Positions 15,591 to 25,559 of a stretch of DNA of 25,559 nt are shown in pieces. The notes beneath the pieces are model-generated. The model did not search any database and had not been told where the DNA came from. It saw only the letters and a program-made list of their open reading frames with translations. A program made the position numbers and the translations under genes. Position 1 is the first letter of the stretch. The number at the start of each line of letters is the position of its first letter. Source of the stretch: a virus; the IMG/VR virus record IMGVR_UViG_3300025585_000150, positions 1-25,559 of that record; one strand, written 5' to 3'.

Positions 15591-18075
15591 CATCCAGATT
15601 CCAAACCTTCCCGTTGCCGTGTCTCTGAATGGCACGGAGGAGATGGAACTTGTTCAGTCCGGCGTATCCGTCCGCGCTACGACTCAACAAATTGCTGATT
15701 TGCAGGGTGTTGGCCCCACGGGCCCTACGGGTGCTGTTGGTCCGACCGGCCCCACGGGCGTGACTGGCCCGACCGGCCCAACTGGGGCAACTGGTCCTAC
15801 CGGAACCCCCGGCAACTCAACCAGCTTGTTTCTGTTTCAAGCTAATACGGCTTCCACCAGCGGCTATCCGGGTGATGGATATATCCTCTGGAATAACGCT
15901 ACCCAAACGTCGGCCACGCAGCTTAACATCAGCCATCTGACCGATAACGGCATTGACGTAGATATTTTTCTCTCGCTGCTGACGATTGGCGAGAGAATTA
16001 TTGTTCAAGACCAATCGGCCAGCGCCAACTATCAGACGTTCACGATTACTGGTGCGCCGACTTCAGTTAACCCCGGCTCCCCAACTGCTTATTGGACCTA
16101 TCCTGTCAGCCTTTTCTCGTCTGGCGGCACGGGAACCACTGGATTTTCTTTCGGCCTTCCGCTGTTCTTAGCTCTAATTGTTGGTCAGGCTGGCCCGACC
16201 GGCCCGACTGGTAACAATGGCCCGACCGGTCCTACGGGCGTTGGGGGTGCTACCGGCCCTACGGGCGCGACTGGCCCCAGCGGCGGCACGAGCTATACGG
16301 AATCACCTACTCCCCCACTAAGCCCGGTGGTTGGCGACCGTTGGCTCGATACTGATTCTGGTATCGAGTACACATGGATTTCTGATGCCAGCGGCGCGCA
16401 GTGGGTGGAGATCAACACCTCTGGCTTCATTGGGCCAAGCGGTCCTACGGGTGCGACTGGCCCCACTGGAGCGACCGGTGCTGTTGGCCCTACTGGCCCG
16501 ACCGGATCGGTTGGCTCCACGGGTCCCACGGGTCCAACCGGCGTTTCTGGCCCGACTGGACCTACGGGTGCGGCTTCTACGGTGGCTGGTCCCACTGGAC
16601 CTACCGGCCCGACAGGCGTTTCCGGCCCTACCGGCTCTGGAGGTCCAACCGGACCCACTGGCGCGGCTTCTACTGTGGCTGGTCCGACCGGACCTACCGG
16701 TGCTACTGGCGCAGTTGGCCCCACCGGCCCCGGCGGCGCGCTTGCCAGCTATGGCTCGTTCTTCAGTGACGTTGACCAGACGGCGACGGTAAACACACCG
16801 ACGCCGATGACGCTGAACAACACAGCGGGCGCGACTAACATCTCTATCGTGTCAAACTCGCGGATTACGTTTGCTGCGGGCGGCACGTTTGACATTCAGT
16901 TCTCCGCTCAATTCCACAACACGGGCGGCGGCGGCTCTGGGCAGACGGTCAACATCTGGTTCCGCAAGAACGGTGTGGACATTCCAAGCTCTGACACCAA
17001 ACTGACGGTTCCAAGCAATGCGCCGTATGTTGTGGCGGCATGGGATTATCTGGATACGTTCGTAGCGGGCGACTACGTTGAACTGATATGGATGACGGAC
17101 AACGCCTCCATCATCCTTGAGCATGAGCCGATTGGGGCGCTTAATCCGGCCATCCCGTCTCTCATTGTCAGCGTTATGCAGGTCATGTACCTGCAAGTTG
17201 GTCCTACCGGCCCCACGGGCGCGGGAGCTACTGGCCCGACCGGTCCTACAGGCGCTACCGGCAGCGCAGGCATTGATGGCCCCACAGGACCCACCGGCGT
17301 AGCGGGCGCATCTGGTCCTACAGGCCCCACGGGAGCCAACGGCATTGATGGGCCTACTGGCCCTACGGGCGTGGCTGGACCTACCGGCCCAACGGGCGCT
17401 AATGGTATTGACGGCCCCACAGGGCCCACTGGTGTCGCTGGTCCGACTGGTCCAACTGGCACTGCGGGCGTTGACGGCCCGACCGGGCCAACTGGAACTG
17501 CGGGTGTTGCTGGCCCCACGGGCCCAACGGGTGATATTGGACCCACTGGCCCTACGGGAGCCGCTTCTACTGTAGCGGGTCCGACTGGCCCGACCGGTAC
17601 AGCCGGAACGGCTGGTCCCACGGGTCCTACTGGCCCGACTGGCGTTGCGTCCTACACCCGCACATCCTTCACGGCTACCGGCGGTCAGACGACGTTCTCG
17701 GTCACGTATACCGTGGGCTACATTGAGGTCTACGTTAACGGCGTATTCCTAAATGGCTCTGACTATACGGCCACCACGGGCACGGATGTTGTCCTTGCCA
17801 CGGCGTGTACGGCTGGCGATATTGTTGAGTTTGTCGCCATCTCTGTGAACACGTTCGGCGCTGGCCCGATTGGCCCGACTGGTCCTACGGGCGCGAGCGG
17901 CCCCACTGGCTTCTCGCCGCTGGTGGCTAACGACGCGATCATTCTTAACTACACAACGATCTCGGCTAACTACACGATGCCCACTTCTTACAATGGCATC
18001 TCTGTCGGCCCGATCACGATTGGCAGCGGGGCGACAGTGACGATTTCCTCGGGACAGCGCTGGGTGGTGATCTGA
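15583..18075 (+). CDS. Large collagen-like / C1q-like tail fibre
   Basis: The 830-residue fibre starts with an anchor (1-42, [20 protein letters not shown]). Collagen-like Gly-X-Y runs lie at 44-77, 203-234, 283-385, 539-688 and 761-776. Between them are globular beta domains: 78-202; 237-279 ([16 protein letters not shown]); a C1q/TNF-like domain at 388-538 ([27 protein letters not shown]); 690-756 ([19 protein letters not shown]); and an end domain at 778-830. Collagen triple helices form stiff trimeric stalks. The protein probably radiates from the tail and may bind the host surface. It overlaps its upstream neighbour by 8 nt and its downstream neighbour by 1 nt. Confidence 0.85.
15712..17910. 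repeat. Collagen-type GPTGPTG coding repeats
   Basis: Five blocks of Gly-X-Y lie at about 15712-15813, 16189-16284, 16429-16737, 17197-17646 and 17863-17910. Higher-order units are visible: a 21-residue unit based on [21 protein letters not shown] (residues 578-598 and 599-619, a diverged third at 620-640), and [13 protein letters not shown] three times (from residues 324, 354 and 653). Codons vary between copies. Confidence 0.85.
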
Positions 18076-18551
18076 TGAGTACGATTGCTGCGGGAACCAC
18101 TGGCACAACCGCCCTGCAAAGCACGGGCGACACGACCGGCAATCTGGTTTTCCAGACTAATGGCACCACGACTGCGCTGACGTTAACCAGCGCACAGGCG
18201 GCAAACTTTACGGGCGTCGTGTCGGATTCGGCTGGTAAACTGCGCGCTATTCCTCAGTCTGGATCGGCTAAGACCAGCAGCTATACGCTGGCTACCGGTG
18301 ACGTGGGTGAGTTCATTCAGGTCAGCACCGGCGGCAGCATTGTTATCCCTGACGCGACGTTTTCAACGGGTGACGTGGTGTCGGTGTTCAACAACACGTC
18401 TGGCAGCATTACGATCACTTGCACGATCACCACGGCCTACATTGGCGGCACGGACGCTGACAAGGCGACCGTTTCCCTCGCCACGAGAGGTGTCTGCACC
18501 ATTCTGTTCATCTCTGGCACGGTCTGCGTGATTACGGGGAACGTCTCGTGA
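18075..18551 (+). CDS. Fibre-type protein, cassette 1 (C-terminal type A)
   Basis: The 158-residue protein has an N-terminal segment with TALQSTGDTTGNLVFQTNG and TTTALTLTSAQAANF. Its C-terminal beta domain (type A) runs from IPQSGSAKTSSYTL (about 59) through GDVVSVFNNTSGSITITCTI to the end GTVCVITGNVS. The type A domain recurs, highly similar, at the C-terminus of the gene at 24676-25461. The N-terminal segment is related to that of the gene at 21245. ATG overlaps the upstream stop (TGATG), and the downstream GTG overlaps this stop by 4 nt, so translation is coupled in a chain. Confidence 0.7.
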   Translation: MSTIAAGTTGTTALQSTGDTTGNLVFQTNGTTTALTLTSAQAANFTGVVSDSAGKLRAIPQSGSAKTSSYTLATGDVGEFIQVSTGGSIVIPDATFSTGDVVSVFNNTSGSITITCTITTAYIGGTDADKATVSLATRGVCTILFISGTVCVITGNVS

Positions 18552-24675: not shown

Positions 24676-25461
24676 ATGGCGATTGATTTCCCATCCTCTC
24701 CGACCATAGGCCAAACCTACGCTTATGGAGGCAGAACTTGGCTTTGGAACGGTGAGGGCTGGGAAGCCACCACTGCTGCGTATGGTCCGACTGGCCCGAC
24801 TGGAGCTACCGGTCCTGCTGGTGGCCCTACGGGTCCGACTGGTGGCGTAGGGCCGACAGGACCTACCGGAGACACCGGGGCAGGTGGGCCGACCGGACCC
24901 ACAGGTGCGGCGGGTACGGTAGGCCCAACAGGACCTACGGGAGACACTGGCGCGGGTGGTCCGACCGGGCCAACGGGGTCTATTGGGTTGACTGGGCCCA
25001 CGGGTCCGACGGGCGATACGGGGGCAGGCGGTCCTACTGGCCCAACTGGTGACACGGGGCTTACGGGTCCTACGGGACCCACTGGTGACACCGGCGCTGG
25101 CGGACCTACTGGACCTACGGGCCTCACCGGCCCAACCGGACCTACCGGGCCGACGACTATTCCTCAGTCTGGTTCCGACAAAACCACTTCCTATACGCTT
25201 GTCTCTGGAGATGTTGGTAAGTACATTGGCGTGGGGACCGGCGGGTCTATTGAGATTCCCAACTCTGTGTTTTCCAACGGCGATGTTGTCACGCTGTACA
25301 ACAACACGTCGGCAGGGATCACGATCACCTGTACGATCACGACAGCGTACATTTCTGGCACGGACACAGATAAAGCGACCATCACTCTGGCCTCCAGAGG
25401 TGTAGCCTCTATTCTGTTTGTCAGCGGTACTGCCTGCGTGGTTTCGGGAAGCGTCTCCTAA
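24676..25461 (+). CDS. Collagen-like fibre, cassette 5 (C-terminal type A)
   Basis: The 261-residue protein has an N-terminal domain [31 protein letters not shown] (1-31), a common fibre start. Residues 37-160 form a collagen-like stalk. The C-terminal type A domain (161-261) is closely related to that of the gene at 18075: [40 protein letters not shown] and an end in VSGSVS. It uses the same end with a different stalk and start. Its stop overlaps the next ATG by 1 nt, like the other type A gene, which also overlaps its partner. Confidence 0.8.
24850..25137. repeat. Four 72-nt higher-order collagen repeats
   Basis: Four consecutive 24-residue units (59-82, 83-106, 107-130, 131-154) all begin [19 protein letters not shown] and differ only in the last five residues. 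At DNA level the copies differ widely at synonymous sites. Confidence 0.85.
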
Positions 25462-25559
25462 TGGCCGCAGTCCACCAAATCTGTCTTGCGACTCAGACGC
25501 CGCTACCGGCCCCGCCAAGCGTGCAATATCTGGTTGTGGCAGGCGGTGGTGGAGCTGGC
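25461..25559 (+). CDS. Glycine-rich candidate tip, cassette 5 (cut by window end)
   Basis: Thirty-three codons are visible, running off the window without a stop: a leader [17 protein letters not shown], then PPSVQYLVVAGGGGAG. This matches the start of the Gly-rich genes at 18548 and 23776. The short leader is closer in form to that at 18548, the partner of the other type A fibre. ATG overlaps the upstream stop by 1 nt (TAATG). The full gene probably runs about 800 nt further. Confidence 0.7.
   Translation, partial: MAAVHQICLATQTPLPAPPSVQYLVVAGGGGAG

Follow-up and report, generated by a model that had tools for sequence, protein, structure and literature searches.

A putative plug-and-socket joint between short fibres and interchangeable tips in aquatic phages

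How does a phage that encodes several short fibres, each followed by a gene for a different tip, keep the tips matched to their fibres? The question is raised by the complete IMG/VR record IMGVR_UViG_3300025585_000150, which was analysed here over its whole length of 25,559 bases (hereafter, the window) and belongs to a tailed phage, as judged by terminase, portal and major capsid matches. Its last part (18075-25559) carries five fibre/tip gene pairs in a row. Fibre and tip are probably joined as plug and socket: the tip would be an interchangeable receptor-binding module on a small fibre, and compatibility would reside in its first ~19 residues. An earlier note on this DNA had described the pairs as cassettes of reassorted parts, but missed the main regularity, namely that the tip start follows the C-terminal type of the fibre and not the body of the tip. 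Open reading frames for all five pairs stand where it had placed them, with the tip of pair 5 incomplete in the window:

18075..18551, plus strand: pair 1 fibre, STGD N-terminal module (N-module) and socket A (about 18243-18548)
18548..19399, plus strand: pair 1 tip, plug A at 18548-18604 (MSGIHLALLG...), then a Gly_rich_2 body
19409..19933, plus strand: pair 2 fibre, N-module of its own and socket C (about 19604-19930)
19933..20841, plus strand: pair 2 tip, plug C at 19933-19989 (MFAAKNMQFSSS...), then a Gly-rich body of ALK_LTK_GRD type
21245..21820, plus strand: pair 3 fibre, STGD N-module and socket B (about 21437-21817)
21830..22888, plus strand: pair 3 tip, plug B at 21830-21886 (MPTAISFAAGSARGFGFA...), then a WD40-like propeller with 47-amino-acid (aa) repeats and seven marks
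23191..23766, plus strand: pair 4 fibre, SNLAPGA N-module and socket B (about 23383-23763); AlphaFold2 (AF2) model med2ef6de9d99
23776..24594, plus strand: pair 4 tip, plug B at 23776-23832 (MPTIVTRGVASARALGFA...), then a Gly_rich_2 body; AF2 model m29198f779ced
24676..25461, plus strand: pair 5 fibre, collagen-like N-part and socket A (about 25153-25458)
25461..25559, plus strand: pair 5 tip, interrupted by the contig end after 33 aa

The tip of pair 1 starts with GTG and overlaps the stop of its fibre by 4 bases.

Three socket types, each with its own plug sequence

Relatives of the locus were collected with the neck protein, socket B, socket A, the propeller and the pair 2 fibre with its socket C, and of the 147 to 592 loci confirmed in each search the best 80 were kept. 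Loci overlap and some lie on one contig (L104 and L184; L148, L182 and L259), so that socket counts per locus are not independent. The tip was defined as the gene after each fibre that ends in socket A, B or C within these loci; A and B tips shorter than 60 aa were excluded, as was any fibre with the socket end more than 8 residues before the stop. This first set comprised 314 tips, reduced to 178 representatives (non-redundant at 85%).

Across these aquatic phage contigs each of the three socket types is followed by its own plug sequence. Behind socket A the tips mostly start with M[ST]GI..., behind socket B with MPT.IT.GA.SARGFGF and variants, and behind socket C with MFA[AF]KN... or ML[AS][ST]K... 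and variants. A short conserved peptide thus heads otherwise variable tips, which are presumably the receptor-binding proteins. A position matrix over residues 2-21, evaluated by leave-one-out, assigned the right socket to 167 of the 178 tips. For A versus B this stretch gave 126/133, whereas 100 label shuffles averaged 65.8 and never exceeded 82; residues 62-81 gave 75/132 and the last 20 residues 81/118. When matrices were trained on the other body families and tested on the held-out one, 133 of 139 tips were right, the 39 ‘other’ bodies being omitted from this test.

Bodies of the Gly-rich, the propeller and the lectin-like kind were each seen behind at least two socket types. Under family names that are our own motif labels, except for Pfam checks on single members, the numbers behind sockets A/B/C were 31/15/2 for Gly-rich, 3/3/1 for LHGDGTN, 6/7/0 for FPST-end, 6/0/0 for Fn3/Ig-like+FPST, 5/0/0 for RSxxxR lectin-like and 12/18/9 for other bodies, and 1/3/33 for propellers, which is biased in that the socket-C loci of the first set were mostly drawn by the propeller. 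One socket-B tip (L163:4695-6071) has an RCC1 propeller body (PF00415, E 3e-53).

The matrices were then fixed and applied to a fresh set, composed of loci found by the pair 2 fibre with the tip ignored and of four loci from metagenome-assembled genomes (MAGs); its 86 new pairs yielded 65 tips less than 85% identical to the earlier ones. Residues 2-19 were assigned correctly in 63/65 tips, whereas the segments further along gave 9/65 (residues 20-37), 12/65 (42-59), 7/65 (62-79) and 11/65 (82-99). With training labels shuffled (200 runs) the mean was 17.8 and the maximum 52. At residues 20-37 as many as 49 of the 58 fresh C tips looked A-like, because most fresh C tips are Gly-rich, like most A tips; the plug is recognised despite a changed body. 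Six-residue windows placed the C signal of the fresh set at residues 2-10 (58 and 54 of 58), and the B signal of the first set stayed at 57/67 or above up to residue 22. The association between plug and socket weakens sharply by about residue 20.

Covariation was also measured within socket types, the relatedness of the sequences being only partly handled in these partial correlations. Socket similarity correlated with plug similarity once the body was removed (socket A, n=66: partial r 0.32; socket B, n=62: partial r 0.30; 0/999 permutations each), and the correlation with body similarity after removal of the plug was 0.12 (A) and 0.07 (B), reached in 63/999 and 84/999 permutations.

Some pairs look like natural grafts. 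Contig L279 encodes two propeller tips with 81.5% body identity across 313 aa but just 1 of 18 plug residues in common; one carries a C plug and follows a C socket, the other carries an A plug and follows an A socket. In L316 the A tip of L279 recurs beside a C tip that is shorter (81.3% over 219). From these sequences, the propeller body may have been copied between slots in L279. The slot 2 body of L259, behind socket C, is nearest to a body behind socket A (70%, L219/L220).

Modules shared within the window and exchanged among relatives

The module sharing described in the earlier note was confirmed by an all-against-all blastp comparison in which neither low-complexity filtering nor composition adjustment was applied. 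C-type A is common to pairs 1 and 5 (55% identity, 152 aa, E 2e-49) and C-type B to pairs 3 and 4 (63%, 185 aa, E 1e-76), while the C-type of pair 2, here socket C, is distinct from both. The STGD N-module is common to pairs 1 and 3 (38%, 79 aa, E 7e-10), and the SNLAPGA and collagen N-parts were found in pairs 4 and 5, respectively. The collagen part of pair 5 is rich in Gly, Pro and Thr, so its likeness to the 830-aa collagen-like fibre upstream of the cassettes (15583-18075) is partly compositional; Gly-rich and collagen proteins weakly match each other under the filter-off settings. The Gly-rich body is indeed shared by pairs 1, 4 and 5 (tips 1 and 4, 65% over 274 aa; bodies 5 and 1, 58%). 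The pair 2 tip is likewise Gly-rich, but matches Pfam ALK_LTK_GRD (E 3e-13) over Gly_rich_2 (0.69).

The propeller reading of the pair 3 tip also stands, with seven GFGxK[YF] marks spaced 47-48 residues apart. Single-protein searches with it gave no match and no Pfam family rose above cut-off; a profile of 14 sequences (the window and 13 relatives) matched the WD40 protein 2YMU (E 4e-34). By its tandem repeats of WD40 length and its homology to a solved propeller, the tip qualifies as a WD40-type propeller.

The same locus was found in two further records, G001 (56,136 bases, covering the whole window) and G002 (26,786 bases, covering the window from 11824 to its end). The three are 99.97-100% identical over their overlaps and have the same cassette set. 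The suggestion that the repertoire varies within one population is unsupported by these records, and we rejected within-population variation, as no cassette change occurs among the three. G001 and G002 complete the pair 5 tip, a Gly_rich_2 protein of 288 aa (L084:639-1505, in G002), and after pair 5 they carry a spike of collagen/pectate-lyase type (608 aa), then a methyltransferase-glycosyltransferase fusion, and a gene that we read, from its sequence, as probably lysozyme-like.

Near relatives keep the slot order, and the retained cassette stretches have ~77-94% DNA identity; in several slots the identity breaks inside the tip gene. The slot 2 fibre is 95-100% identical in six loci on five contigs (L259, L136, L183, L104, L184 and L181). 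The body of its tip is 97% identical in L183, L104 and L184 and replaced (31-33%) in L259, L136 and L181. In slot 3 the propeller is found in L259, L136, L183 and L181 (incomplete in the last), and an 856-aa lectin-like tip (Laminin_G_3 and DUF7483) takes its place in L184/L104. The slot 4 tips of L104 and L103 begin with MPTIVTRG.... Bodies are thus swapped slot by slot, with fibre and plug kept. L103 is without pair 5 and without the spike, which L259 also lacks. In L259 the slot 4 socket is lost and the N-module is joined directly to the Gly-rich body; on the contig of this locus, at L148:6028-6990, an SNLAPGA N-module and a Gly_rich_2 body likewise form a socketless, one-gene version of a pair.

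Among 133 non-redundant fibres, N-modules were distributed over C-types A/B/C as 9/4/1 (STGD), 2/4/1 (SNLAPGA), 4/4/0 (collagen) and 1/2/1 (pair 2 type), and 100 carry none of the four. Module exchange as the earlier note had imagined it is therefore real: tip bodies are swapped, a pair or the spike is lost and a pair is fused among relatives, and N-modules occur on more than one C-type. A fixed gene order without exchange had been named as the outcome that would speak against a repertoire; the order is mostly fixed, yet modules have been exchanged. One socket was found in 179 loci, two in 36, three in 6, four in 8 and five in 6. In 7538 plus-strand frames neither socket A nor socket B was found naturally joined to a tip within a single frame, and three socket-C rows of that scan resembled other proteins.

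Two small genes lie between the pairs:

20851..21243, plus strand: 130-aa gene, phrog_7759, unknown function, between pairs 2 and 3
22910..23164, plus strand: 84-aa gene, accompanying the propeller tip

The phrog_7759 gene is retained in near relatives despite the change of the preceding tip. The gene behind slot 3 tracks the tip, being the 84-aa gene with the propeller and a Phage_tail_APC gene (L104:5510-5998) with the lectin-like tip.

The fusion behind the fibre island (L084:3365-4957, in G002) consists of an S-adenosylmethionine-dependent methyltransferase and a family-2 glycosyltransferase (530 aa); a gene with the same ends adjoins the island in L259 and L103, where cassettes are lost. 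The closest portal in the phage collection is that of MW202675 (Manatee Spring; 63% identity), and cultured relatives have, for example, 35% (HTVC027P) and 33% (CRP-902). The search of genome contigs with socket B gave 4 loci, each on MAG contigs. Basic proteins with repeated KGGRA-like motifs, read by eye, lie near structural genes of the window (47-370, 7063-8334 and 12846-13121).

Structure predictions and competing explanations

In the proposed joint, the C-terminal domain of the short fibre would be a docking socket, and the first ~19 residues of the separate tip the matching plug. The fibre would be trimeric with its socket at the distal end, and the plug, disordered alone, may fold onto or thread into it; the body would face the host and determine receptor choice. 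Recombination near the border of plug and body and at the conserved tip ends (GSGSITF in many Gly-rich bodies) could then exchange receptor-binding bodies and leave assembly intact, and a genome with several slots could offer its phage a choice of receptor-binding tips, either on a single particle or among relatives.

AF2 models were built for the pair 4 tip and its socket. Their alignments drew on 26 Gly-rich stretches out of 29 and 46 socket-B stretches out of 53, with two window proteins added to each; window duplicates and cut stretches were among those left out. The tip (28 sequences) reached a mean predicted local distance difference test score (pLDDT) of 89.5 and a predicted template-modelling score (pTM) of 0.86, with 207 of 272 residues at 90 or above; residues 4-13 and 15-19 were below 50, and the body began at about residue 22-27. 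The low-confidence stretch coincides with the plug found statistically, although the low pLDDT there may partly reflect an alignment that mixes all three plug types. By VIA-align the body resembles the Bxb1 tail tip (9D93 chain Qb; Z 11.5, 151 residues, root-mean-square deviation (rmsd) 3.2) and the Pam3 fibre (7YPX; Z 10.8, 155 residues, rmsd 3.2), followed by ALK/LTK Gly-rich domains at Z near 5; Foldseek matches were weak (best E 0.2). A Gly-rich profile gave only weak matches to sequences of solved structures (best 0.22, to monobodies; Pam3 0.64). A tblastn search of phages with the pair 1 tip found no match, probably because the low-complexity filter removes Gly-rich sequence.

The socket B model (pair 4 fibre, 48 sequences) had a mean pLDDT of 86.2 and pTM of 0.72, with pLDDT above 80 from about residue 41 and above 90 from about residue 71. 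Its best fold matches were the capsid spike of Pa223 (Z 7.7, rmsd 5.5), baseplate chains of phage KP1 (6.3 and 5.6), the tailspike of Acinetobacter phage Solidus (5.4), CBA120 TSP4 residues 79-180 (5.3) and T4 gp9 (5.1). All rows at Z of at least 5 (5.1-7.7) were phage spike, baseplate or tailspike proteins; yeast carboxylase came next with 3.6. T4 gp10 matched in Foldseek at E 0.13. In a viral structure library 321 matches were found, 114 of them at E of 0.001 or below, and among the best 50 of the 321 unnamed proteins from uncultured phages predominated, together with collagen and tail-fibre proteins. A socket B profile found nothing meaningful among the sequences of solved structures (best 0.71). 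The modelled likeness of socket B to phage spike and baseplate proteins is suggestive only.

Several points weigh against such a joint. Plug and socket genes are adjacent, with overlaps of 4 or 1 bases in many A and C pairs, and hitchhiking could hold them together without binding. In the first set A and B were still separable at residues 22-41 (121/133) and 42-61 (97/133), and in six-residue windows the three-class balanced accuracy, 0.92 at the start, was 0.58-0.72 past residue 20, where chance would give 0.33. The distribution of body families is uneven, as with the lectin-like YIEDVFST bodies (2/21/0 behind A/B/C), and we read the A/B signal beyond the plug as a product of that unevenness. 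The fresh set held 58 C, 4 B and 3 A tips, the C tips being likely related, and its steep drop is partly due to training C tips of which 33/45 were propellers. Four of the six misses in the held-out-family test (L188, L219, L231 and L242) and one of two in the fresh test (L341) regain an A-type start from an upstream in-frame GTG; these five were explained post hoc, and L097, L210 and L378 are not accounted for in this way. Some socket-B tips have divergent starts (L195, L197, L213 and L094, the last being CRP-738). The fold matches of socket B all lie below Z 8 and may reflect a common arrangement. The divergent starts are longer (...YAPML.T.GGGS..G...) and retain a GGGS core; they are possibly a further plug variant.

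The explanation that survives best beside a docking joint, although we think it unlikely, is that there is no docking code and plugs stay with their sockets by co-inheritance of adjacent DNA, with recombination breaking inside the tip gene. Fibre and tip genes abut or overlap, sockets and plugs share descent, and the conserved first codons might serve as a recombination handle. Yet plug type holds across held-out body families and in the fresh set, and plug sequences persist where the downstream DNA has been exchanged. Most B pairs are ~10 bases apart and still keep ~18 residues. The A-plug and C-plug propellers of L279, with 81.5% body identity versus 1/18 plug residues, also speak for docking and against mere linkage.

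Genes for tail-fibre assembly chaperones often adjoin fibre genes, directly downstream, and the second gene of each pair could accordingly be such a chaperone (like T4 gp38 or lambda Tfa), which caps the fibre and leaves, its body fitting the fibre. The pair 4 tip weakly matches phrog_863, ‘tail fiber assembly’ (E 0.004), the only PHROGs match of the tips to a chaperone; Pfam gave no Tfa or Phage_tail_APC homology for the tips of pairs 1-4 (E up to 1) or pair 5 (E up to 0.01). We rejected this candidate, which appears quite improbable, on three grounds: a separate chaperone-like gene (Phage_tail_APC, PF16778, E 3e-23) adjoins the lectin-like tip in L104; the tip bodies are Gly-rich, WD40-like, RCC1 and LamG/DUF7483 domains; and a chaperone would be expected to co-vary with its fibre over the full length, whereas covariation was observed mainly in 19 residues. 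Moreover, the Gly-rich body is similar to the fibre of Pam3, in which the authors describe the Gly-rich domain as receptor-recognising (PMC9608196).

That the cassettes are degenerate duplicates, produced by tandem duplication and drift and devoid of combinatorial function, is suggested by the partial likeness of the window pairs but is very hard to credit, as frames are open in the near relatives examined, bodies are replaced by unrelated folds and not worn down, and all five pairs are kept in near-identical records.

Known systems and the reach of the rule

Tip genes behind fibres, short docking peptides and tail-fibre swapping are already known. Swapping of distal fibres in T-even phages was reportedly described by Tetart and colleagues in 1998. 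The gp37-gp38 system of T2, S16 and PP01 (S16 gp38, PDB 6F45) has the same gene order, with a separate tip gene after the fibre gene, and a Gly-rich body, which in gp38 carries receptor choice. According to PMC12892980, T2 without its own gp38 could not use PP01 gp38, likely through incompatibility with T2 gp37, and PP01 gp38 worked once its N-terminal 113 residues were replaced by those of T2. The tip N-terminus must thus match the fibre in T2/PP01; here the match is one of sequence association. In gp38 the attachment region is long, with 113 residues exchanged in the T2-PP01 chimera and with short helices in the S16 protein, whereas the plug described here has ~19 residues and is disordered in the pair 4 tip model, which is without a helix, and the association is mostly gone beyond the plug. 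Further differences are the existence of three types of socket and plug, the unrelated bodies that one plug can carry, the presence of up to five pairs per record and, in pair 3, a propeller in place of the Gly-rich domain. S16 gp38 (6F45) was not among the sequence or fold matches of the Gly-rich body, and kinship may still exist.

Anchor-branched receptor-binding proteins (RBPs) of Klebsiella and K1-5/SP6-like phages also display a short conserved N-terminal peptide on interchangeable proteins; it has as few as 7 residues and is thought to dock tailspikes onto a T4gp10-like domain of a first protein (PMC6872550). There the peptide bears depolymerase spikes on a branch point, while here its cargo is a tip of the lectin-like, Gly-rich or propeller kind and the fibre ends in the socket. 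Cyanophage Pam3 gp24 (7YPX) and the mycobacteriophage Bxb1 tail tip (9D93 chain Qb) appear, by model comparison, to share the Gly-rich body fold; in Pam3 this domain lies within one fibre protein whose helical N-terminus docks to the baseplate (PMC9608196), unlike the separate tip gene described here.

Similar gene neighbours occur in named phages. Synechococcus phage S-CBS2 has socket A with collagen (gp052, 43% over 100 aa) followed by a ‘PE_PGRS’ gene (gp053), and in MW202481 socket B (UOF77559, 73%) precedes a gene that bears the annotation ‘phage tail fiber adhesin gp38’ (UOF77560). Socket B is also found in Roseobacter phages CRP-738 and CRP-3 (50% and 47%). These four differ from the window in having one matching place each for the searched socket, and the tip start of CRP-738 is divergent. 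A multi-type plug-and-socket rule across aquatic phages with unrelated bodies did not appear in full-text literature searches, mostly in their top rows, of a collection that lacks most subscription papers and all bioRxiv preprints.

It is a tenable proposition, nearly as likely as not, that unrelated aquatic phages share docking standards, with at least three plug/socket types, so that tips would form a common pool between phage groups and slots, with compatibility fixed by ~20 residues and sockets readable in the sequence assigning tips to the fibres of uncultured phages. If the joint is as proposed, a sequence of 20 residues would tell which fibre owns a tip, and RBPs would become recognisable in metagenomic data in which the tips resemble unrelated proteins of low complexity or propellers. 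The joint would also provide a rule for changing receptor binding without breaking virion assembly and, with related sockets in cultured Roseobacter and Synechococcus phages, one that could be tested on isolates.

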